Below are positions 1,668 through 19,013 of a stretch of DNA of 22,745 nucleotides, in pieces. Source of the stretch: a virus. The notes below the pieces were generated by a model that saw nothing but the letters and a program-made list of their open reading frames with translations, had not been told where the DNA came from and ran no database searches. Position numbers and translations under genes: made by a program. The stretch lies in the IMG/VR virus record IMGVR_UViG_3300033148_007178, positions 1 through 22,745 of that record; one strand, written 5' to 3'. Numbering within the stretch: position 1 is the stretch's first letter; each line of letters opens with the position of its first letter.

Positions 1668-1934
1668 CTAGCCTCCTATAAATTGTGACATTAACCATTT
1701 TAGAGGTCTGCTGACCGGTCGGAGCGTCAGGCTCATATGGAAACAGAGCCGGTATATTTGCGTATCGAACCAAAACGAATAAACGGGCGTTTGTTTCGAC
1801 CGACGTGTCTGTTTCAGGTCGATATAGAACCGGTATTTCTTTTTGTGTCGGTGCCAACTGTATCCGAATTCGAAAAAATCGGTTACCTGGAACCGACGGT
1901 CTATATAGATTTTATCAAGTTGTATCGGTTTCAT
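1668..1934 (-). CDS. Hypothetical basic protein, 88 aa
   Basis: Chosen over a competing 65-residue frame (1660-1857) because its ATG at 1934 overlaps the TGA of the upstream resolvase gene in the classic ATGA arrangement, and its end supplies the GGAGG site for the next gene. The product is rich in Tyr, Phe, Trp, Arg and Lys (IYIDRRFQV, YSWHRHKKKYRFYIDL), suggesting a small beta-rich nucleic-acid-associated protein, but no family is recognised. Function unknown; it is probably coupled to resolvase translation. Confidence 0.55.
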   Translation of the reverse strand: MKPIQLDKIYIDRRFQVTDFFEFGYSWHRHKKKYRFYIDLKQTRRSKQTPVYSFWFDTQIYRLCFHMSLTLRPVSRPLKWLMSQFIGG

Positions 1935-3193
1935 TGCAGTTGCCTCCGGGTTTCGTCTTGTATGTCTGTCGGGTTAGTTCGAAAAAAGTCCCTGAATTCG
2001 GTCTCGGTTAATTTATTAACACCGATTCCTGACGCTAAATGCCAATCAAATAAAATGTCTAACTGGTTTAGAGTTAAGACCTGGATTATAGTCTCAAGGT
2101 TTTGCAGGTATGTTAATTTAGTGGTATAAGTGACACATAACTCGATAGACGACCTCGGGGTCTCTTTCGGCATTATTGAAATCAGTGCAAACCCGCCAAC
2201 GTCTTCAATCGTGTATTGTAACGATCCTCGTATAAAATTGATTATGATATTTGACGACCCCTCGTCAGTAAAAATTGAAAACCTGAGGTCCGAGACCCGG
2301 TCTTTATACCGGAGCACGATCCGGTTCTCTAATTCTGTCTTTTTCAGAAGTTTTTGAATTAAGTAGAAAAGCATGACTATTGAACCCCGTGTTCTTATCA
2401 GTTCTGTGTCACGGTACTTGATTCTGTATGATTTGAGTAATATGTTAATAAATGAGATCGATATTTGTTCATCGTTCATTATCTGGTTAATAACGGGCTC
2501 TATCTGGAAATCTATATCGGTTACTTGAACCCGGTCGGATTTCTTATCGGTAAAAACCGTTAACTCGAGTTTGCCGTCCTCTAATTCGATAAGAGACGAA
2601 TGCGGAAAAGACATAACCGGTCTTAAATGGTTTAAAAAATTGTAAATCCGTTTCGATATCGTCAGTTCGTTATGGATAAATTTATCTAATGCGTATCGGG
2701 CTAATAAGTAAGCATCACAGATATCGTGTTGTTTTTCTGTCCATATAACGTCGAACCGGTCTTTACAGGCTTTTAACATGTCTTTCTTCGTTGCTCGACC
2801 GTTCCCGGTTGCCCATTTCTTCAACGTTGCCGGGTATACTTCTACTATTTGACTAAGCCGTGACCGGAAATGCCATTTCAACATTCCTATAAACTCGAAC
2901 CGGTCAACGAGTCCTCGTCGTCTACCAAAATTAACGGCTTTCTCGATTACCAGTAAATCGATATCCGCCGGGTCGATAAGAAGATCTTCTATTCTTTTCG
3001 CAAATATTTGCATTGTCCTTACTGAACTCGACACACGTCTGGTTCCTTTAACGGGTTTTCTTTGCCGGACTACGCTATTGAAGTATTCGATTAAACTTGT
3101 CTCGCCGGTTAAAACGTTATATTCGAGAATAACTGCACCTGTCGATTTCAATGCCGGGTCTATCGCAAGTATTTTTATTTTGTTGTCTTTCAT
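1931..3193 (-). CDS. RuvC-like Holliday junction resolvase with long C-terminal extension
   Basis: 420 residues. Residues 8-170 carry a RuvC/RNase H-fold nuclease: strand 1 ILAIDPALKSTG (D12), strand 4 LLVIEKA (E84), the segment VYPATLKKWATGNG (119-132) that matches the P..vKk..tG.G element of RuvC-type resolvases, and HDICDAYLLARYAL (H156, D157, D160). The four acidic positions expected for two-metal catalysis are present. Such enzymes resolve branched replication or recombination DNA, often before packaging. RuvC proteins are usually 160-190 residues; residues 171-420 form a mixed alpha/beta extension that I cannot assign. An AGAGGA site sits 7 nt before ATG 3193. The gene is in the leftward operon and overlaps the next start by 4 nt. 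Confidence 0.85.
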   Translation of the reverse strand: MKDNKIKILAIDPALKSTGAVILEYNVLTGETSLIEYFNSVVRQRKPVKGTRRVSSSVRTMQIFAKRIEDLLIDPADIDLLVIEKAVNFGRRRGLVDRFEFIGMLKWHFRSRLSQIVEVYPATLKKWATGNGRATKKDMLKACKDRFDVIWTEKQHDICDAYLLARYALDKFIHNELTISKRIYNFLNHLRPVMSFPHSSLIELEDGKLELTVFTDKKSDRVQVTDIDFQIEPVINQIMNDEQISISFINILLKSYRIKYRDTELIRTRGSIVMLFYLIQKLLKKTELENRIVLRYKDRVSDLRFSIFTDEGSSNIIINFIRGSLQYTIEDVGGFALISIMPKETPRSSIELCVTYTTKLTYLQNLETIIQVLTLNQLDILFDWHLASGIGVNKLTETEFRDFFRTNPTDIQDETRRQLQ

Positions 3194-6188: not shown

Positions 6189-7325
6189 TTAGTTTCCTAG
6201 ATGAATAATTTCTGAGATCAACTCTTCAGAGGGTTTATTCATATACCCGGGTTCCATCAGTCTCACTTTCCATAATCTCGAAAAGTTTTTGAGAGATGGC
6301 ATTTTCTTTGTCTGTCGTTTAATTCCTTTTAATGCAATATTTAGACTTGCGTTTCGGTCTCGGTGGTCTTGATGACCACAGATACATTTAAACCGTCGAC
6401 CCGTTACGCCTGTTGGATTATGAGTTCTGCTCTTTGCACAGGTCGTGCTGGTTCGATATGGATCAACTTTCATTGTTCTGATTGAAGACCATTTCGCTTT
6501 GTATTGAATGTAAGATAATAAACGGTATAAAAACCAGGTTTCGGGTCTGTCTGAATACTGTAAATAAGTTGATCTGGATAGGTTTTCTAAACAGATAATC
6601 GGGTTCGAATACTTTTTCGATATACAGAGGGCTATATGAGATATTTTGTGTGCAAGATTAATTAGTTTGTGTTTTTTTTCAAGTTTCTTTTTTCCTTTAT
6701 CCAGAACTCGACTTATGGGTTCATATTCGATTATAATGCTGTTCAATACGATTCCGTCTGGTTTTACTGCAGATATTGTTATGTTTGATTCATTGAGATC
6801 GATTCCAATAAACGTTTTAGGTATATATTTAATTTCAAACTGTTCAGAGACCGAGATATAGATGTAATATTTCTTATCTCGTTTTACCAGCTCAGCTACT
6901 TTTAAACCTTGTTCGTTTTTGATTCTTAGTAATAAAGCGGTATCAAATTGATTTCCTTTAATTTTGCATTCTATAGTTTGACCATTTCCTAGGGAAATAC
7001 TTAAATTAAGTTTGTTATCGATTATATAATCGTGACCGTATCTTAAACCGGTAATTATGTTATCCGTAATAAATTTACGACTAAGACTTTTTCTTGATTT
7101 GACTATTCGGTTATAGACTTTGCTAAATGTGTAATCGATAAAATTCTGTTTAATAAACGAGGGAGGAAAACAGTCTTTTAATTTAGTATAATTAGAATAA
7201 TTTGATTTTAATACTAAATCCCTAAAGAGTCTTTTTAAACGATCAGTTTCTATAAGCAAAGTGTCGAGAGACTCCCCGTTATCGATTAACAATTTGAATT
7301 TAAGCGTCCGACGACGAAAATACAT
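6189..7325 (-). CDS. tnpB: TnpB family RNA-guided nuclease (IS200/IS605-type)
   Basis: 378 residues. The RuvC-type triad is intact: D176 in FIGIDLNES, E247 in ICLENLS, D323 in HRDRNASLNIA. The VDPYRTSTTC segment (287-296) matches the TnpB zinc-knuckle region, but the knuckle is altered: C296-x2-S299 replaces CxxC and C314-x-C316 replaces the second CxxC. TnpB proteins use a guide RNA made from the 3' end of the gene and the adjacent transposon end to cut DNA next to a short target-adjacent motif. No TnpA transposase is present, so this is a solitary TnpB. A TATA box 26 nt upstream of ATG 7325 indicates its own leaderless promoter. The gene separates leftward and rightward viral modules. Length is normal for the family. 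Confidence 0.9.
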   Translation of the reverse strand: MYFRRRTLKFKLLIDNGESLDTLLIETDRLKRLFRDLVLKSNYSNYTKLKDCFPPSFIKQNFIDYTFSKVYNRIVKSRKSLSRKFITDNIITGLRYGHDYIIDNKLNLSISLGNGQTIECKIKGNQFDTALLLRIKNEQGLKVAELVKRDKKYYIYISVSEQFEIKYIPKTFIGIDLNESNITISAVKPDGIVLNSIIIEYEPISRVLDKGKKKLEKKHKLINLAHKISHIALCISKKYSNPIICLENLSRSTYLQYSDRPETWFLYRLLSYIQYKAKWSSIRTMKVDPYRTSTTCAKSRTHNPTGVTGRRFKCICGHQDHRDRNASLNIALKGIKRQTKKMPSLKNFSRLWKVRLMEPGYMNKPSEELISEIIHLGN

Positions 7326-8597: not shown

Positions 8598-10061
8598 ATG
8601 CCTCGACCGAAAAGACAGGGTAACGAAGACCCCGAATACGAATTTAAAAAACAGCTTAAAGAGAAGATTGGCAAATTACCATATCAACGCAAGAAAGGAG
8701 AAGCGTCATTGAAGGAAATTCAACTTGAGAAATTAGTTAAAGACCCTGTTTATTTTGCCGAACAAATTCTGGGTTATAACCTGTATTCATATCAAAAGAA
8801 CACGTTAAGGAAATCTCTAACCATAAAAAAGATTTTATTATGTTGGGGTCGACAAACAGGTAAATCAACTTTACTAACTCTAGCTGCAATTCATTTCGCG
8901 TTTACGCATCCCAATTCAACTCAATTAATTATATCGCCTTCGCAAAGACAATCGGTGAAGTTAACTACGCAGATAAAATATATAATAGAATCTACGCCAC
9001 TTTTGCGCCATTCTATTGAAAAGAAATCATGGTCTAAAACCGAGTTAACGTTCTCAAACGGCGCTAAAATCGTTTCGTTGCCCGATTCGTTACATACGAT
9101 TTTAGGATATTCAGCTCACCGGATTTATATCGATGAAGCAGCGCAGTTCCCATCTGATGAAATCTTTACAAGAGGTTGTCAACCGATGATTCTCGCTACC
9201 GATGGTGAGATTTGGTTAACATCAACACCCCGAGGTAAAAGAGGTTTCTTCTATAAGAAATTTGTAGAATGGGGCGAATCTACAGACGCGTATATTAGTT
9301 TAATGAAGTCTACTGACTCTCCAAACATTAATCAAATTGAATTAGAGAAACAAAGAAAAACGATGGACGAATTAACCTTCGCCCAAGAATACGAATGTTT
9401 ATTTGTAGATGACTCAACGTCATATTTTCCATATGAATTAATTGGCAGATGTCTGATCCAGCCCGGTGATATGGATTTCGATTATCCTGATCCGTTTAGA
9501 GAACCCAATGCGACTTATTATGCAGGAATCGATTGGGCTAGATTTAAAGACTATACAGTATGCGTTATATTCAAAGAAGATGCAAAAAAGCATCTAACTA
9601 TGGTAAATATGATTAGATTACGTGGAATTGATTATGAAGATCAACTGAAAGTAATTATACCTATGTTATACGATTATAGACCAAAGAAAGTTATAGTTGA
9701 CCGCACGGGCGGTAGACATGATCAACAGTTTAAGAAACTCATTGAAATGGGTTTTAACGTTCAGCCATGTGATTTTAATACAGAAAAATTCGATATAATG
9801 AGCACTTTACAGATAATGTTTAGAAATGGTGTTTTATCAATACCTGACATACCAGTTATCAGATCGGAATTCCGAAATTATCAAGCGCAATTATTGCCTT
9901 CTGGTGCTATAAGGTTAGGCGCAATTGGAAAGAAACATGACGATATACCTTCTGCAATAGGCATGTGTGTATATGGCGCAAGACGTTTGAAACATTATGG
10001 TAAAGTTCGAAGTCGAAGTGCGAAATCACGTCGTGTCACTCGTTTTAGTCTATTGAAGTGA
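8598..10061 (+). CDS. terL: Terminase large subunit (packaging ATPase-nuclease)
   Basis: 487 residues. The N-terminal ATPase has Walker A GRQTGKS (84-90), Walker B IYIDEA (D179, E180) and the coupling motif LTSTPRG (207-213). The C-terminal RNase H-like nuclease has GIDWA (D312), IVDRTG (D368) and KKHDDIP (D448/D449) as metal ligands. The enzyme cuts concatemeric DNA and pumps it into the procapsid through the portal. All catalytic motifs are intact, and the length is normal. It begins 2 nt after the small terminase gene. A 14-bp palindrome follows its stop codon. Confidence 0.95.
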   Translation: MPRPKRQGNEDPEYEFKKQLKEKIGKLPYQRKKGEASLKEIQLEKLVKDPVYFAEQILGYNLYSYQKNTLRKSLTIKKILLCWGRQTGKSTLLTLAAIHFAFTHPNSTQLIISPSQRQSVKLTTQIKYIIESTPLLRHSIEKKSWSKTELTFSNGAKIVSLPDSLHTILGYSAHRIYIDEAAQFPSDEIFTRGCQPMILATDGEIWLTSTPRGKRGFFYKKFVEWGESTDAYISLMKSTDSPNINQIELEKQRKTMDELTFAQEYECLFVDDSTSYFPYELIGRCLIQPGDMDFDYPDPFREPNATYYAGIDWARFKDYTVCVIFKEDAKKHLTMVNMIRLRGIDYEDQLKVIIPMLYDYRPKKVIVDRTGGRHDQQFKKLIEMGFNVQPCDFNTEKFDIMSTLQIMFRNGVLSIPDIPVIRSEFRNYQAQLLPSGAIRLGAIGKKHDDIPSAIGMCVYGARRLKHYGKVRSRSAKSRRVTRFSLLK

Positions 10062-10122: not shown

Positions 10123-11433
10123 ATGGTTAGATTTTTCGAAAAATTATTTAAAAAAAGGACTGAACCCAAATCAAAGTCAAAAATAGTATGGACTAACGCA
10201 GCTTCATTATCGCTGTTATCAAAACTCAATGAAAGAACAAATAGGGAAACTAAAACTAGTGAAGATATTAAAATCAGACGAGTTCCGTTAGATAAATTAG
10301 AAATACTGGCTGCGGCTGATGCATCAGTAAAAGCCGGAATAAACTTAATAGCGAACCATGCAATACCAGATCATTCGATAGTTGGCGATTATGCACCTTT
10401 AGTGATTGATACTCTTTCTACTTTTGATCGAGATTTTGATTTTTATATGAAAGCAGCGGTGAAACATGCAGCTATTTACGGAAACGGATTTCAAGAAATA
10501 GGAATTGGGTCTACTAACCAAAAAGTAACTAATTTATTTATTGTCGACCCAAAAACGATGGACTTCGAACGTGGGATAGGAAGTACTATTTTAGTAGATG
10601 AAAGCCAGAAACCTATTGGTTTTAGACAAGAGGGTCGAATATCAAGTGACCCAATTCCTTATGATAAAATATGTCATTTTAAATTAGACCAAATCAGCGA
10701 TTCAGAAATGGGTATAGGGTTAGTTGAACCTTTAGCAACAATTATAATAACAAAGGCAAATATAGAACTCGGGTTAGGGCAAGCGATTTATCGAAAGGGT
10801 TTTCCATTTTTAATAGGAACGGTCGGAAACAAAGAAGTTGTTCCAACTGAAGACATGATCGATGATCTTTCAGATGACTTAGCGTTAATGAATATGCGTG
10901 ACGAGTTAGTCGTGCCCTGGTATTATGATGTTAAATTTCTTGAATCGAAGAATTCTGAAAAGATGGCGACACATCTCGATTACTTCCTTAACATGATTTG
11001 TGCGGGTTTAGGTATCCCAAAACCAATGTTGTTTGGAACGGGCGAAGATACCAATAAAGCGACCCTTACAGGTCAGATTATTGGGTTTGACCGGACTTTA
11101 CGGTCATATCAAAAACTTATTAGTCGAGAATATGAAAAGAAACTTTTTGGTCGTATTCTAGCCAGTAATGGCATAAAAACATCAAAAGTGCCAGAAATAA
11201 TCTTTGCAGAAATAAACCCCGAAGATTTGAATGATAGAGCAACCAGATTATTGAAATATGCAAGAGCAAAGGCAATTACAATGACACCTGATATCGAAAA
11301 CGTTATCCGTCGGTCAGAGGGGTTTCAGAAAATAAATTCGAGTATGGCAAATACAAAATACGAGAGTAAGATAATCCAATCTAAAGGCTATAATGGCATT
11401 GTAAAAGATGCATGGTCGATAAAGAACGCATAA
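10123..11433 (+). CDS. Phage portal protein (HK97-like)
   Basis: 436 residues. The dodecameric portal forms the DNA gate at the unique capsid vertex and docks the terminase. Typical portal features are visible: an early ADASVKAGINLIANHAI segment, the central wing (KHAAIYGNGFQEIG; IVDPKTMDFERG), and the C-terminal clip/stem region with GLGIPKPMLFGTGEDTNKATLTGQ, where the helix of archetypal portals reads LG.P..L.G......, followed by RTLRSYQKLISREYEKKLF. Position right after terL is canonical. Length is close to the family norm (about 400-500). It is followed by the enzyme fusion rather than a MuF protein. Confidence 0.9.
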   Translation: MVRFFEKLFKKRTEPKSKSKIVWTNAASLSLLSKLNERTNRETKTSEDIKIRRVPLDKLEILAAADASVKAGINLIANHAIPDHSIVGDYAPLVIDTLSTFDRDFDFYMKAAVKHAAIYGNGFQEIGIGSTNQKVTNLFIVDPKTMDFERGIGSTILVDESQKPIGFRQEGRISSDPIPYDKICHFKLDQISDSEMGIGLVEPLATIIITKANIELGLGQAIYRKGFPFLIGTVGNKEVVPTEDMIDDLSDDLALMNMRDELVVPWYYDVKFLESKNSEKMATHLDYFLNMICAGLGIPKPMLFGTGEDTNKATLTGQIIGFDRTLRSYQKLISREYEKKLFGRILASNGIKTSKVPEIIFAEINPEDLNDRATRLLKYARAKAITMTPDIENVIRRSEGFQKINSSMANTKYESKIIQSKGYNGIVKDAWSIKNA

Positions 11434-11452
11434 TAATGATATAAATTTCATA

Positions 11453-14400
11453 ATGGGGATAAATATGGTTCATAAAGACGATATACCATCAGAATTAGAC
11501 ACAAAAGTCTTAGTGTTCGATCATATGATACTACACTCGTGGTGGAATAAAATTCTGAAGGGCGAGACTATTGAAGGTTGGACTAAGAACGAAATAAAAG
11601 TCTTACATGATAAAATAGCAAAAGAATTAATTAAACGAGGTCTAAAACATAATACACCTCTTATCGATAAAGAATCTAACGAGGAACCCGGAAAAAAAGA
11701 ATCCGCCAAAATCACATTAAAAGAGTTTTTACAGAGTTGTAAACCTAAACTGGATGTTCGAGGAGAACCCGTAGTTTTTGTAGTCGGATCGATAGTCAAT
11801 AAAGGATGGTCTGACGAAGGACACGATATCGATATTTTAATTAAATACCCGTATCCAAATCAGAAAATAATAGATACCATAAAAGAATCATTTCCACCAC
11901 ATATAGCCAATAAATTAGAATTTATTTGGGATGCGAGTCCCGATGCTCCTCTTATAGGTAACGCTGTCCCTCTTTATGATGCCTATTTTAATGAGATCAA
12001 TAACGAACAATTATTTGACCTTTCAACTGATTATCAAGAACTAGGTGGCGTTAATACTATAGCGTATATCGGGTCGAAAATGAGGTTTATTAATTTTATT
12101 ACACGCCATATCCCTGAAGGAGTTAAAAGTATACTCGATGGTTTTGCAGGGTCTAATATTGTTTCGATAGCGTGCAAAAAACTGGGTTACAAGGTCTACA
12201 CAAACGACTGGATGAAATATTCATATATTATAGCAAAAGCCGTGATAGAGAACCAACGGAGTCGGTTAAAGGATTCTGATTTTGATATTTTGTTTCAAGA
12301 AAACAAAAACTGTCCAACGCCATTCAAAGACCGGTGGAGTTATGATTATTTTACACCAAATCAAGTTTATTGGATTGACCAGATATATCACAATATCTCT
12401 AAACTGAAAGGTTATAAAAGGTATTTAGCAAAAGCATCACTCCTTAAAGCAATGTCAATGATTAGAGTTAGGAGTGACTTCGACCGGAAAGTGAAAGAAG
12501 CACACGACAATCGGGATTTCAAAAAAGTTTTATTGAGAGCTTATAAGATATTAGAGCGTTTTATGGTAGATGGTCAAGAATGTCGAGCATATAATGAAAG
12601 CATTTTCGATTTATTGCCAAACATGCAAGTAGATTGTGCCTATTTCGATCCTCCTTATGCTGGATTAGTTCCTGAAACTGCTTATCAATCTAAATATTTT
12701 GTCTTCGAAATAATTGCGAATAACTATAAAGAAGACGGTAAAACTAAAATAACTAAACGTCATGACGATAAAGGGGCGCTTTGGACTGCGAAACGAGCTG
12801 GAGAAGCATTTAGTCTTTTATTCGAAAAAGCGAAACACATCCCAGTAATCATGATTTCCTGGTCAGAGAAGGCTCAGCTTAGCTCCCGAAAAATAAGATC
12901 AATAGCAAAAACATATGGTTATGAATGCCGGGTCAAAAAGATTTATCGTGATTATACATTCGATATGGGACCTCGAGGGCGAAATTCAACCAATGAATTA
13001 TTGTTTATTTGTATTAAAGAAAAATCAAATTTTGCATTTGAGTATAGCAAAAATACCGTAGAACTTAAAGCGCTTCAGCCATTCGATAAATTTGGACCTC
13101 TAAAAGCGGCAAAAGGATATCATGAAGCCGAATTCTTTAATTGGGATTCGTTTAAAGAGAATTGGGCAGAGAAAAAAATTAATGAAGAAAAAAAACAGGT
13201 CGCCGTTGAAAAGAAATTTGACGGTATCCGATTCATAATACACCGTAAGGGCGATATAGTTAAAATCGTTACCGAAGACCGAAAACGAGACCGAGCCTAT
13301 ATGTTTAAGAAATCAGTCGAAGATTTTCTAAAACTCAAACCGGTTAATTTCATTTTAGATGCGGAGATGGTTGAATACACTGACCCAACACACAAGAAAG
13401 CATTACGACGAGAGGATATGATAAAATGGGTAGTTGCAAAGGGCGGATTAGACGATAGTAACGTTCAATTCAATGTATTCGATTGTTTATACTATAATGA
13501 CAAAGCCCTGAACGATTTGCCTTGGTCTGAACGACAGGAATACCTAAAAAAGGTAATACCTAAAGACACTACTCACATCCATAGGGTAATCCCAATTATA
13601 GCAAAAACATTGCCTGAGTTGAAGAAAGCTATCGAAACACAACGCAAAAAACCGAATTCAGAAGGCGCTATGGTGAAAACCACTGACCATATCTATCCGA
13701 TAACGGGATTGAAAGAGAGTAGAACCGATGAATGGGCAAAAATTAAGAATGTTAAACAGATCAAAGTTAAAGTCATAAAAATAGAAAAAGCGGTAAGAAA
13801 ATCAGGTAAAGAGAAAGGAAAACCCATTGAGGGTGCAAATATTTATCATTGTGCTATAAAAGACTCGAAAACAGGCGAAGACGTTTTCATAGGTAAAACA
13901 TTCGCCACGTCTATAAAAGCAAAAGTTGGTGACATTATCGAAGTCTCGCCGGTGAAAATAAATATCGAAGAAGAAGATGGCAAATTAAAGTTTTCCTGGG
14001 AATTTCCTCGTGTTACAGCCGCTGAACCTACTAGAACCGAACCCGATACTACAAACGACGCAATTAATATCGCCGAGAAAGGGATTGCCCCGCTTATCGA
14101 ATCGCTTATAGAAACTTTAATGAAAAAGGAATTGGAGATTTGTCCCTATTGGAAAGATATTTTCGAATGTCCGCTTAATTTACGTTTTGAACAACCGATG
14201 ATCGAAATTAATGGTTTAAAATACCCGATTAAATGTAAACACGCATATAATTATCGATGCGTATATGTCAAAGATTATTACTATAATTCGATTACTGATA
14301 TGACCGAAACTTATGTCGAATCGGAGTTAGTGCAACTGGAGCATGAGGATCTAAACGAAAATATGATTGAACAGATTTTAAGATATCAAGAAACGGTTAA

Positions 14401-15094
14401 TTTAGACCAGGAAGCGCCTACTCGTGAGCCGCTTTTACCGAAATTGCTTGAACGACCTAAAACTAAGAATGCACCATATGTAGTTCAAACACACCGACGC
14501 GGTGATTCAGTACATCTTGATTGGCGGTTTGCGATAACGGATTCAAACGGTAAGATACGTCATTTAGTTGGATGGACTGGTTTTGATCCAAAATCAGTTG
14601 ATTTACCTCTAAAAACATCCAACAAACCTGGAATGAATAATCTTCGAGTTAGAACGGTGCCTAAATCAAGACAACCTGCTTCTTGGTTAAAAGTAGAGGG
14701 AAAAGTAGAACCTGGCGAAGTTGGTGCAACGAAAACGTTACCTGGTTTCTTTAAAATTATAGATAAAGGCACATGGATGCCTTTAACCCAAAAACCGTTT
14801 TTCTGGGAAGTATGGCTTAATGGAGATAAGTTCAGTGGCAGATGGGTTTGGCGAGCAGTCAAAGTTCCGGTTATAGACCCGAAAACTAAAAAACCCATAA
14901 AAGGTAAAACTCAAATTATTTGGACGTATTGGAAACCTAAAGACCAGAATCCATATATCGCAAGTACAAGAGCGAAACGTGAAGGTTTTGTGCCACCTAA
15001 AGGCGTAGTTCCTTTACCTGATGAATGGGTTGAAAAAAATCCAGAAAAAGCTCTTGAGATTGCAAAATATCTTTTAGAGAGGTGGTTGAAATGA
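11453..15094 (+). CDS. Four-enzyme fusion: nucleotidyltransferase, D12 DNA methyltransferase, ATP-dependent DNA ligase, LigD-type phosphoesterase domain
   Basis: 1213 residues. (1) About 100-190: polymerase-beta-type nucleotidyltransferase, VVGS (G112, S113) and GHDIDILI (D125, D127). (2) About 198-525: D12/Dam-type adenine methyltransferase, YIGSKMRF, SAM motif LDGFAGSN (229-235) and catalytic DPPY (399-402). (3) About 540-855: DNA ligase, motif I EKKFDGIR with nucleophile K588, DAEMVEY, FNVFDCLYY, SEGAMVK and EWAKIK (K763, K765), then an OB-like fold. (4) About 1006-1170: LigD 3'-phosphoesterase-like domain, YVVQTH (H1014), HLDWRF (H1021, D1023, R1025) and WEVWLNGDKFSGRW. The linker at 897-936 has four Cys. 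ATG 11465 with GGGGAT upstream is an alternative start. All key residues are present. It sits between portal and protease, overlapping the protease start (ATGA). Confidence 0.88.
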   Translation: MGINMVHKDDIPSELDTKVLVFDHMILHSWWNKILKGETIEGWTKNEIKVLHDKIAKELIKRGLKHNTPLIDKESNEEPGKKESAKITLKEFLQSCKPKLDVRGEPVVFVVGSIVNKGWSDEGHDIDILIKYPYPNQKIIDTIKESFPPHIANKLEFIWDASPDAPLIGNAVPLYDAYFNEINNEQLFDLSTDYQELGGVNTIAYIGSKMRFINFITRHIPEGVKSILDGFAGSNIVSIACKKLGYKVYTNDWMKYSYIIAKAVIENQRSRLKDSDFDILFQENKNCPTPFKDRWSYDYFTPNQVYWIDQIYHNISKLKGYKRYLAKASLLKAMSMIRVRSDFDRKVKEAHDNRDFKKVLLRAYKILERFMVDGQECRAYNESIFDLLPNMQVDCAYFDPPYAGLVPETAYQSKYFVFEIIANNYKEDGKTKITKRHDDKGALWTAKRAGEAFSLLFEKAKHIPVIMISWSEKAQLSSRKIRSIAKTYGYECRVKKIYRDYTFDMGPRGRNSTNELLFICIKEKSNFAFEYSKNTVELKALQPFDKFGPLKAAKGYHEAEFFNWDSFKENWAEKKINEEKKQVAVEKKFDGIRFIIHRKGDIVKIVTEDRKRDRAYMFKKSVEDFLKLKPVNFILDAEMVEYTDPTHKKALRREDMIKWVVAKGGLDDSNVQFNVFDCLYYNDKALNDLPWSERQEYLKKVIPKDTTHIHRVIPIIAKTLPELKKAIETQRKKPNSEGAMVKTTDHIYPITGLKESRTDEWAKIKNVKQIKVKVIKIEKAVRKSGKEKGKPIEGANIYHCAIKDSKTGEDVFIGKTFATSIKAKVGDIIEVSPVKINIEEEDGKLKFSWEFPRVTAAEPTRTEPDTTNDAINIAEKGIAPLIESLIETLMKKELEICPYWKDIFECPLNLRFEQPMIEINGLKYPIKCKHAYNYRCVYVKDYYYNSITDMTETYVESELVQLEHEDLNENMIEQILRYQETVNLDQEAPTREPLLPKLLERPKTKNAPYVVQTHRRGDSVHLDWRFAITDSNGKIRHLVGWTGFDPKSVDLPLKTSNKPGMNNLRVRTVPKSRQPASWLKVEGKVEPGEVGATKTLPGFFKIIDKGTWMPLTQKPFFWEVWLNGDKFSGRWVWRAVKVPVIDPKTKKPIKGKTQIIWTYWKPKDQNPYIASTRAKREGFVPPKGVVPLPDEWVEKNPEKALEIAKYLLERWLK

Positions 15095-16899
15095 ATTTTA
15101 AGAATCTTATTTCTATAATCGAGAAAGTTTCAAAAGGTAAAACTAAAGAAGATTTTCTTAAATGGAAAGAAGAAAATAAAGACAAAATTGAGTCAATATT
15201 TAAGAAATACCCGGATGTTCTAAGCCTATTGAGAAAATATCCTTTTAGATTAAAACAGGTTACTTATGGTGGTGGACCTGTTCGGCAAACACCGCATGAA
15301 GATTTTTATCTCTTAATCAAAGAAAATTGGATCGTATACAGATATGACTTTTTAGCGAATCCACTATATGAAGATATTGTCTCGGTTCGGGAACGGCAGA
15401 AAATTAACGAAAAATGGTTCGATTATGAAGGATTAATTGGTCCTAACAATATTTTCAATCCAACTAAAGAACTGAAAGCTGAAATGATTACCGTCGATAA
15501 GGGAACCGTTGATATTAAAGAAGAAACAGAAGAACGAGGTGCGAAGAAATTTAAGATGGATTTCGACGGAAAAGATTTAAAAGGAATTTATTATTTGGAG
15601 CAAGAAAGCGAGAAAGCGGATATATGGGTATTCTCAAAAGGCAAAGAGTTTCTCTCGAGTGAAATCGATTTCGTGATCCAGGAACATAAAGGCAAAAATT
15701 TGGAGAAACACTGGGATCTTCGATTCGATATTAACGATCATTTAGATAAATGGACTTTCGTAGTTAATCCGGTTGAGATTAAAGAAATAGAAAAACCAGT
15801 TAGAGTAGTTCGAAGTGTATGTAAAGATAAATCATGGATGGATAAAGAAGGGAAAGTCACTTTACCACGTTGGGGCGAAACTGAGGTTAAAATTATCGAT
15901 AAAGGGAAGGCAAACATTATCGAATCAAATCCTAGGTTCCTATCAGTTATTTTCAATGGAAAACATTTAAAAGGTTATTATGTGTTCCAGTTACGGAATG
16001 GAAGTTTTGTATTCGAAAAATCGAAATTACCAGAACCGAAAAAACTAAAAGCAACGTTTCCAGAGGGACATCCACAAGGCAAACCGTTTAAATCTAAAAT
16101 AGAGGAAAATGACGATAAAATAGTTTTCATATTAAGAGATATAAGATTTTTTTCGAGTTGTGAGAAATTTGACTATCCGGGTCAACTCCCAAAAGACGTT
16201 AAAGCTATAGTGTGTTCATATCCTGTTGAAGGCAGTTTACCTCATCTAAAAATACAGCGTATTGAATTTAAGAAACCCGCTTGGAGTTTAGATAAAGCAA
16301 AGTTAATTATCAAAGAAGAGGATTTCTCGAGTTGGGAAATTGAAGAACCCCGACCCAAGAAGAAAAACCAGCTCGATGCATTATGGGCTTGTCCTATTTT
16401 TCAAGAAATGCTTCAACAATATATCGACCTTGCATCACATGGTAACCCAATATACGAATACTTTAAGTCAGGAATCTTAACTGAAGAGTTGAGCCAAAAT
16501 GGATTCTCTCGAAAAATAAAAGGCATTGCCCTTATGGAAGGAACATTTAATGGTGCATTCTATCCCGCTGAAGAAATAGAAAAATCCTATAAGACATTGC
16601 TCGGCAAACCGTTTATGATAAACCATTCAAAAGATGTTCGAGACAATATTGGAAAAATAACAAAAGTCTGGTGGGAACCCAAAGAGAAAAGCATGTATTT
16701 TGAGGCAGAAATCGATAATGAAGAGTTTTATTCAAAAATAAAAGAAGGGAAATTGACTGGTGTTTCAGTAGGCGTTCTGACTAATAAAATGATTAGGGGA
16801 AGGAAAATTGTTGCGACTGATCTAATTTTCAAAGAACTTAGTTTAGTTGTGATCCCCGCGTGTCCAGACTGTCAAATCAAGTTTGTTGAGGGCAATTAG
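15091..16899 (+). CDS. Prohead maturation protease fused to LigD-type phosphoesterase-like domains
   Basis: 602 residues from ATG 15091, which overlaps the upstream TGA and has GAGGTGG 5-6 nt before it; GTG 15082 would add 3 residues. Residues about 130-182 resemble the last strands of a LigD phosphoesterase domain (VDKGTVDI, FDGKDLKGIYYLEQE). Residues about 194-313 form a second, complete copy: FVIQEH (H199), HWDLRF (H207, D209, R211), IIDKGKANI, FNGKHLKGYYVFQL. A linker with WSLDKAKLIIKEEDF follows, then a C-terminal prohead protease (about 472-600) with GIALMEGTFN, NHS (H512), TGVSVG (S559) and FKELSLVVIP (E582), matching the Ser/His layout of phage prohead proteases. The protease cleaves scaffold and capsid proteins during maturation. 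The phosphoesterase fusion is unusual. CPDC lies near the C-terminus. Confidence 0.85.
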   Translation: MNFKNLISIIEKVSKGKTKEDFLKWKEENKDKIESIFKKYPDVLSLLRKYPFRLKQVTYGGGPVRQTPHEDFYLLIKENWIVYRYDFLANPLYEDIVSVRERQKINEKWFDYEGLIGPNNIFNPTKELKAEMITVDKGTVDIKEETEERGAKKFKMDFDGKDLKGIYYLEQESEKADIWVFSKGKEFLSSEIDFVIQEHKGKNLEKHWDLRFDINDHLDKWTFVVNPVEIKEIEKPVRVVRSVCKDKSWMDKEGKVTLPRWGETEVKIIDKGKANIIESNPRFLSVIFNGKHLKGYYVFQLRNGSFVFEKSKLPEPKKLKATFPEGHPQGKPFKSKIEENDDKIVFILRDIRFFSSCEKFDYPGQLPKDVKAIVCSYPVEGSLPHLKIQRIEFKKPAWSLDKAKLIIKEEDFSSWEIEEPRPKKKNQLDALWACPIFQEMLQQYIDLASHGNPIYEYFKSGILTEELSQNGFSRKIKGIALMEGTFNGAFYPAEEIEKSYKTLLGKPFMINHSKDVRDNIGKITKVWWEPKEKSMYFEAEIDNEEFYSKIKEGKLTGVSVGVLTNKMIRGRKIVATDLIFKELSLVVIPACPDCQIKFVEGN

Positions 16900-18182: not shown

Positions 18183-19013
18183 ATGCGGACTTTAGCAGAA
18201 CTTTTCTTAGATGAAAAAAATGTAGATCCTAAACTGATTAAAGAGGAAATAGCGACTATAATCGAAAAAGCGGCAAAACCACGACTGTTTGGTCGAGAAT
18301 TGGTTAAAATAAAGAAAGTCAGTGCACCAACATTTACGTTCTTTAGGAGAACCACAAAATCGTTCCCAGTACATAAAGGTAAATCTGGCGCAAATAAACC
18401 AGCAGCTCCGGACGCCGAACGAGTGAAAATAGATGTAAGTGTTGACAATTATTGGGTTGATCTGGAATGGACTGAAGACATGATTGACGACAAACAGTTT
18501 GATCTCATGGCAGATGACCTCGAGATTGCCTCCTTCTCAATGGCATTACAGGAAACACAGGATATCATTGATGGTCTTATTGCAGGTGCGGGTAATACTG
18601 TTGCTGCTGATAGTGCCGGTACTCTCGGTCCTGATGACCTCGCAGATGCTGTAAACCGATGCGAAGTTGACGATTATTATCCGACCACAATTTTGATGCA
18701 TCCAGACCAGGCATATGACTTAAAAGTCAATACAGACCTCGTCGATTCGTCATATATTGGTGGATCAGAAATAATCCGAGAAGGTAGACTTCCTATCATA
18801 CAGGGTCTAAATGTAATGGTTACTCGACTGATTTCGTCTGGTACTGCTCTTGTGCTTGACCCAAAATGGGCTGCATATCTAGTTATGAGACAGGACCTGA
18901 GCATGAAAAATATCGAGGATCCATTCAGAGACATTGTAGGTCAACGACTTAAACAGAGACGTGGATTCGCAATAAGACAACCCGACGCAATTTGTACTAT
19001 CACGAACTGTTAA
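18183..19013 (+). CDS. Major capsid protein (HK97 fold)
   Basis: 276 residues. The N-terminal arm and E-loop region (residues 1-90) are followed by typical P- and A-domain features: VDNYWVDLEWTEDMIDD, the spine helix FSMALQETQDIIDGLI, TTILMHPDQAYDL, and IREGRLPIIQGLNVMVT, the near-universal G.i.G..V..T element of HK97 capsids, then LDPKWAAYLVMRQDLSM and a strand-rich C-terminus. The product builds the icosahedral shell. GGGGGTG lies within the end of the decoration gene as ribosome site. The chain is short for a protein with an in-built delta domain, in line with a separate scaffold gene upstream. A hairpin with T-rich tract overlaps its stop codon. Confidence 0.9.
   Translation: MRTLAELFLDEKNVDPKLIKEEIATIIEKAAKPRLFGRELVKIKKVSAPTFTFFRRTTKSFPVHKGKSGANKPAAPDAERVKIDVSVDNYWVDLEWTEDMIDDKQFDLMADDLEIASFSMALQETQDIIDGLIAGAGNTVAADSAGTLGPDDLADAVNRCEVDDYYPTTILMHPDQAYDLKVNTDLVDSSYIGGSEIIREGRLPIIQGLNVMVTRLISSGTALVLDPKWAAYLVMRQDLSMKNIEDPFRDIVGQRLKQRRGFAIRQPDAICTITNC

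Follow-up and report, generated by a model that had tools for sequence, protein, structure and literature searches.

The virus record IMGVR_UViG_3300033148_007178, analysed over its full length of 22,745 bases (the window), carries in its head operon two adjacent genes that combine a nucleotidyltransferase (NTase), a Dam methylase, an ATP-dependent DNA ligase, three barrels with the fold of the LigD 3'-phosphoesterase (PE) domain, and a prohead protease. The three LigD-PE modules were confirmed: PE1 ends the upstream protein of 1213 residues, and PE2 and PE3 precede the protease in the next protein of 602 residues. The domain identities, the fold, the conserved ligase and metal-type residues, the operon position, and the recurrent linkage or fusion to head proteases of two Pfam families are directly supported. 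Related uncultivated viruses repeat the arrangement, which suggests a DNA-repair kit loaded into the virus particle. The PE-protease fusion is one state of a conserved ligase-PE polyprotein module, not a peculiarity of the window protein. We give about even chances to the idea that this is a capsid-targeted polyprotein for healing and sealing DNA ends, which the prohead protease would process and which would work on nicks or genome ends, either within the virion or from it, with loading into the virion and catalysis as its presumed steps. The features of the two genes are as follows.

11453-15094, plus strand: NTase-Dam methylase-DNA ligase-linker-PE1 fusion, 1213 residues (open reading frame (ORF); Pfam DNA_ligase_A_M 2.7e-24, MethyltransfD12 1.2e-20)
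11768-12022, plus strand: putative pol-beta-type NTase core, GS..D125xD127 (motif conservation; weak profile matches)
12065-12763, plus strand: D12-class adenine methylase, DPPY at D399 (Pfam PF02086 1.2e-20; motif position)
13169-14032, plus strand: ATP-dependent DNA ligase core with an OB-like part, catalytic K588xDG (Pfam 2.7e-24; DNA ligase chains 6e-9 to 8e-7)
14468-14944, plus strand: PE1, LigD-PE-fold barrel (AlphaFold2 model, predicted local distance difference test (pLDDT) 87.6, predicted template modelling score (pTM) 0.82; superposition on 3p43 and 3p4h; conservation)
15091-16899, plus strand: PE2-PE3-mid-prohead protease fusion, 602 residues (ORF and start signal)
15232-15642, plus strand: PE2, complete but degenerate LigD-PE barrel, residues 48-184 (joint model; profiles)
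15661-16029, plus strand: PE3, LigD-PE-fold barrel, residues 191-313 (Pfam LigD_N; Z score of 17.7 to 3p4h)
16084-16440, plus strand: "mid" domain, shared with tri-PE proteins of relatives (alignment A9, 10 sequences)
16516-16878, plus strand: S78-like prohead protease, H512 and S559 (PHROG head protease profiles; conservation)

Fold of the PE barrels

The Pfam LigD_N profile matches residues 200-302 of the GTG-numbered ORF with an E value of 3.6e-8, above the curated cut-off. In a phmmer search of the PDB with the 602-residue protein, the best solved relatives were the PE domains of Candidatus Korarchaeum (3p4h; 7.9e-10) and Methanosarcina barkeri (3p43; 1.5e-6). PE2 and PE3 were modelled together (residues 1-460; 12-row alignment; mean pLDDT 76). 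PE3 in this model superimposes on 3p4h with a Z score of 17.7 and a root-mean-square deviation (RMSD) of 1.9 Å for 117 residues. The Z scores with 3p43, 3n9b (P. aeruginosa LigD), 5dmp, and 2lj6 were 17.1, 14.8, 13.8, and 12.4, respectively, and the first unrelated chain followed at 4.6. The PE1 model gave a Z score of 15.7 with both 3p43 (RMSD of 2.2 Å; 123 residues) and 3p4h (1.7 Å; 115 residues), the first unrelated chain being at 4.1. Furthermore, the family profile of PE1, at about residues 1006-1164 of the upstream protein, matches all five PE structure entries (3p43, 5.2e-6; 3p4h, 9.2e-4; 5dmp, 2lj6, and 3n9b, 0.07-0.28).

A preliminary description of this DNA had placed a LigD-PE fold on the N-terminal side of the prohead protease and the same family at the C-terminus of the upstream fusion, and had staked this beforehand on a structural match to the LigD PE barrel. 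Both placements are borne out by the superpositions of PE3 and PE1. It had counted at least two, perhaps three, modules; three were found. The "partial copy" that it saw at residues 125-185 is indeed a related module but is not partial: it is the second half of a complete, degenerate barrel, PE2. The 12-row profile of PE2 finds 3p43 (6.3e-5) and 3p4h (9.5e-5) over most of the PE2 length, and profile-profile comparison of PE2 with PE1 gave a probability of 96 and an E value of 2e-9. The models thus place PE3 and PE1 in the LigD 3'-phosphoesterase superfamily with its eight-stranded barrel. PE2 would belong to it by profile alone, its shape being seen within the joint model.

Metal-type residues and conservation

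In the PE domain of P. aeruginosa LigD, His42, His48, and Asp50 are metal ligands, Arg52, His84, and Tyr88 are phosphate ligands, and mutation of either His84 or Tyr88 inactivates the enzyme, according to a review (PMC8656161). The window PE1 keeps the metal-type set as H1014, H1021, D1023, and R1025. Over the PE1 sequences of the 36 loci described below, these His, His, Asp, and Arg are found in 33, 36, 36, and 35, respectively; the three sequences missing the first His have gaps there. In addition, 35 of the 36 have a Lys (Lys1071 in the window) three residues ahead of the His84 position. The active-site lysine of the ligase is present in all 31 sequences that have letters at that position, and the DxD of the NTase is invariant in a 12-row alignment and conserved family-wide. 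In PE3, H199, H207, D209, and R211, exactly the residues picked out earlier as those of the PE site, are invariant in the 12 aligned rows, which comprise tri-PE relatives. By sequence, therefore, the LigD metal triad and Arg are retained in PE1 and in the window PE3, and not in PE2. Spatial clustering of the His, Asp, and Arg residues of PE3 is expected from the superposition of the model on 3p4h and from the sequence register.

The protease fusion

The 602-residue protein spans 15091-16896, and its reading frame is open throughout. The ATG at 15091 is preceded by a Shine-Dalgarno-like stretch (GAGGTGG) and overlaps the stop codon of the upstream gene (ATGA); no such stretch stands in front of any in-frame internal start near the protease. 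From the overlap and the position of this signal, a single chain containing both the PE barrels and the protease is the most likely product, its translation being coupled to that of the ligase protein.

The protease domain matches PHROG "major head protein" and "head maturation protease" profiles with E values of 4.7e-7 to 5e-5, and its match to Pfam Peptidase_S78 was below the cut-off (13.4 of 21 bits). The catalytic-type residues are conserved, H512 in 19 of 19 rows and S559 in 18 of 19. The alignment behind this count (A4), in which PE and protease fragments were treated jointly, put PE3 and the mid domain wrongly under the protease; it served solely for the His/Ser count and not for modelling. 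Together with the place of the gene in the head operon, the conservation of His and Ser points to an S78-like prohead serine protease, as had been recognized at the outset.

For the mid domain, the profile of 10 sequences (A9) gave no PDB relative at E ≤ 1; VIA-align lists were also without a match, though these exclude nothing. The domain (16084-16440, plus strand; also in L078, L080, and L105) contains the conserved motifs YP.pG...ARV and W..eKA..WI..N, and in tri-PE viruses it sits behind PE3.

Relatives of the module

A search with the PE1 peptide GEVGATK, together with profiles, yielded 36 distinct loci with PE1, the window and the ANMV-1 virus included. The motif occurred at 69 loci, 20 of which passed an extra motif filter; the remainder were other proteins with the same heptapeptide or members missed by the filter. 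Such missed true members (for example L012, L035, L056-L058, and L069) were regained by a later search. L079 and L101 repeat L078, and L087 repeats L088, being the same protein or lying on an identical or nearly identical contig; these rows and L001 (the window itself) were left out of the counts.

The common plan in relatives is NTase-ligase-PE1-(PE2)-PE3, then protease, then capsid protein. The window barrels match those of the tri-PE proteins (e.g. L078, L080, and L105) one to one; compared with these, the window differs only in having a gene boundary after PE1 and none ahead of the protease. By hand tally, a head protease is beside or fused to the module in 26 of the 36 loci. It lies in the same ORF as PE in eight (S78-like in the window, L094, L100, and L107; XkdF family in L058, L091, L092, and L098), follows as the adjacent ORF, at most 100 bases away, in 11, and is further downstream in seven (one, L109, with a weak match). 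No protease was seen at the other 10 loci, five of which are at contig ends. In a 31-tip tree of ligase+PE1, where some supports are just 54-70, the fused loci occupy seven separate branches, which could reflect fusion or fission. PE1 is also present in 6 of 392 genomes of the archaeal phylum that contains an Archaeoglobales metagenome-assembled genome (MAG). Two loci from these, L119 and L120, are PE-protease fusions as well, so that the fused loci total ten, with two protease families. In L120 (808-3537), the order is ligase-PE1-protease-NTase; the protease is internal, so that release of the NTase would require cleavage.

Partner domains were surveyed by Pfam in 25 ligase proteins (the window, ANMV-1, and 23 others). 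The DNA ligase is present in all 25, a metallo-beta-lactamase domain in 10, a D12 methylase in four, and a pyrimidine-dimer glycosylase (L100) and an AAA domain (L099) in one each. These partners are of DNA-repair or DNA-modifying types. The 1242-residue ORF of L100 (7823-11548) combines a pyrimidine-dimer glycosylase-like domain, NTase, ligase, PE1, PE3, and prohead protease in a single chain, which comes close to a complete excision-repair path. In L072 (3842-6970), an InPase domain (4e-34), DUF5661, and a PE1 barrel share one ORF at a contig end, and there is no ligase on the fragment. Iyer et al. 2017 (PMC5512222) describe the InPase domain in proteins for which they predict packaging into virions. 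Intein-like insertions, LAGLIDADG or splicing domains, interrupt the NTase-ligase protein of L080 (2-4783; LAGLIDADG at residues 1053-1100) and L082 (262-4290; residues 552-726).

Of the nine loci on named MAG contigs, six have archaeal labels (Archaeoglobales, Thermoplasmata, Thermoprotei, Geothermarchaeota, Euryarchaeota, and Methanosarcinales) and three have bacterial labels; binning may err. ANMV-1 and the Guaymas MAG contigs originate from methane-seep or hydrothermal sediments. Among 50,697 phage records, ANMV-1, a virus of methane-seep archaea, was the sole match and is annotated simply as "ATP-dependent DNA ligase"; in 72,556 plasmids, matches were to the ligase part alone. A tblastn search of phages with a cellular PE sequence gave no match, and scans of viral contigs with single window proteins (P0001, P0002, and TerL) gave no true relative. 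One hit, L002 (2878-3054), is 41% identical to residues 27-74 of the protease fusion; this short match is probably due to chance, the ORF being putatively 2-oxoglutarate-oxygenase-like. Pfam LigD_N detects two of six carrier virus records, and none of the five proteins tried has its PE part covered by a PHROG family. Public profile libraries thus appear to overlook much of the ligase-PE family.

Comparison with known systems

The window barrels share with the solved LigD PE domains (3p4h, 3p43, and 3n9b) the fold (Z scores of 11-18), the His-His-Asp and Arg in register, and a tight coupling to an ATP-dependent ligase. They differ in the replacement of His84 and Tyr88, in tandem copies including a degenerate one, in the position C-terminal to the ligase, and in the fused or linked prohead protease. 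Bacterial LigD (POL-PE-LIG), which acts with Ku, likewise has ligase and PE in one unit; in the window, an NTase stands in place of the LigD polymerase, the order is NTase-ligase-PE, and the genes lie in a viral head operon. Pfam shows no archaeo-eukaryotic primase (AEP) polymerase domain in the 1213-residue protein, where the scan gives NTase (weak), methylase, and ligase. No Ku was found among the 11 window proteins in general Pfam and PHROG scans, the window being a fragment and no search being aimed at Ku.

ANMV-1 AJP62006.1 (KP703175) has NTase-ligase-PE1-PE3 adjoining the portal gene, as in the window. It differs in that its PE parts are unannotated, the metal site of PE3 is lost, and no protease was found beside it. 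Next to this gene, ANMV-1 (L003, 5868-9368) encodes a cysteine-rich repeat protein of 1166 residues, the last residues of which resemble a MuF-type C-terminus.

The HGTV-1 protease gp11, an example of the S78/XkdF prohead proteases, is similar in its protease domain and head-operon position, and differs in showing no PE domain in a Pfam scan. A further parallel is the polyvalent proteins, described by Iyer et al. 2017 (PMC5512222) as large proteins of several domains in portal-terminase phages, for which they predict packaging and processing by a peptidase. Judged by sequence, the window system fits this description as a large multidomain effector encoded with portal-terminase genes. The zincin-like processing peptidase of polyvalent proteins was not seen by Pfam in the 25 ligase proteins, and a prohead protease is present instead; in the window case, it would itself be the processing enzyme. 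In the same article, "LigD" is absent, "ligase" occurs three times, in passages on RNA ligases, and archaea are called poor in polyvalent proteins. If the particle does carry a LigD-like kit without Ku, this would in effect add a new branch to the theme in archaeal viruses.

A full-text literature search, the coverage of which lacked some relevant papers, found no description of LigD-PE domains in archaeal viruses or together with a prohead protease. Term searches found no "ligase" in the main text of the ANMV-1 paper (2015) and none of the terms tried in the ANME-1 virome paper. The parts are known already; their combination and its spread are absent from the literature and databases searched.

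Possible function

The proteases of T4 and HK97 act inside the prohead. Since the window protease would likewise work inside the procapsid, the PE barrels fused to it would be drawn in with it. The two genes would then form one functional unit, the last part of which is covalently joined to the protease. During maturation, the protease might separate the domains by cutting, and the products might remain in the virion. There, PE1 and PE3 might bind, and perhaps trim, 3' DNA ends, and the ligase might seal nicks or join the ends of the genome, either in the course of packaging or soon after ejection. A role in or at the capsid is favoured because of the linkage to two head-protease families, the repeated fusion, and the DNA-repair partner domains. 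Little is known about the way in which tailed viruses of archaea protect their genomes on entry and close them; some mycobacteriophages close theirs using Ku and the host LigD. A DNA ligase and end-processing barrels wired to a capsid-maturation protease make this question directly testable, and the fusion suggests a route for loading enzymes into capsids. More tentatively, and as less probable than the role proposed for the window proteins, archaeal tailed viruses might pull a Ku-less LigD-like polyprotein (NTase, ligase, remodelled PE barrels, and sometimes a dimer glycosylase or metallo-beta-lactamase-type domain) into the procapsid via the prohead protease, cut it there, and eject it with the genome to heal and circularize it.

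Several observations weigh against a packaged, catalytic kit. The sources searched contain neither a virion proteome nor a cultured carrier, and most loci were found via one exact peptide motif, so that the counts are not frequencies. The NTase is assigned from its motif and from weak matches (E values of 0.1-1) to TdT, pol beta, pol mu, and MNT-type chains, and because of this weakness no gap-filling role is claimed for it. Moreover, the protease is a separate gene in 18 of the 36 loci, which means that fusion is not required. This last point, together with the position of the genes between portal and protease in the late operon, could be explained by packaging-coupled repair in the cytoplasm. 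T4 packaging requires nick-free DNA, and the ligase and PE might similarly seal nicks and clean concatemer ends at the portal-terminase so that the motor does not stall; the link to the protease would reflect shared head assembly, and little or nothing would be packaged. We consider this rather unlikely: the domains, being covalently joined to the protease on seven branches of the tree, would be carried into the prohead with it, and the Dam methylase and dimer glycosylase partners better fit protection of the genome on entry.

The remaining difficulties for the packaged kit concern the PE sites. In PE1, E or Q takes the place of His84 in 32 of 36 sequences, and W that of Tyr88 in 35 of 36 (Q1074 and W1078 in the window). 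In PE3, the phosphate ligands are replaced too, with W249 at the Tyr88 position and no His at the His84 position, and the H-H-D-R set is kept in just 18 of 32 sequences, the window and all tri-PE relatives among them, and lost in 14. The PE2 site is gone in the 11 other tri-PE proteins of the 12 rows, the window PE2 alone retaining an HxD (H69 and D71). PE1 and PE3 thus lack the LigD phosphate ligands His84 and Tyr88. Because of this replacement, they are not filed as classical 3'-phosphoesterases, and classical 3'-phosphatase activity is doubtful. The losses in PE2 and PE3 fit binding as well as catalysis. With the replaced phosphate ligands and the tandem repetition of the barrels, they might even mean that the barrels no longer catalyse but bind DNA, portal, or capsid, serving as core or scaffold anchors by which the ligase and protease reach the assembly site. 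This structural role seems to us somewhat less likely again than cytoplasmic repair, since H-H-D-R of PE1 in nearly all 36 divergent sequences and a new, near-invariant Lys exceed the needs of a scaffold. The residue counts across the barrels and for the ligase lysine suggest strong selection on PE1 for a metal- and phosphate-type site unlike that of LigD, with PE2 and PE3 freer. The preliminary description had offered trimming or binding of DNA ends in the procapsid, or an assembly anchor. The best reading still links the barrels to DNA ends or to the procapsid; 3'-phosphate trimming is not to be assumed.

Finally, a metagenomic contig with short operon spacing might produce a meaningless fusion by assembly error, read-through, or drift of unrelated neighbours, which is very improbable and close to refuted, since the linkage recurs in many separate records, ten loci are fused with two protease families, and the only start signal is at the N-terminus.

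Neighbouring genes

The ORF list, Pfam, and PHROG show a standard head operon in the order terminase, portal, 1213-residue fusion, 602-residue protease fusion, charged protein, small protein, HK97-fold capsid protein, and, at the window end, contractile-tail sheath. Context genes are as follows.

8598-10061, plus strand: large terminase (Pfam/PHROG)
10123-11433, plus strand: portal protein (Pfam Phage_portal 2.4e-11)
18183-19013, plus strand: HK97-fold major capsid protein (Pfam Phage_capsid 6.6e-10)

On the minus strand, the ORF at 1931-3193 may begin with a RuvC-like resolvase domain (Pfam 0.065, below the cut-off), followed by a long C-terminal part without an assigned family. A TnpB-like protein with a Cas12f1-like TNB domain (Pfam, 8.2e-17) is encoded at 6189-7325, also on the minus strand, and separates the leftward from the rightward gene block.

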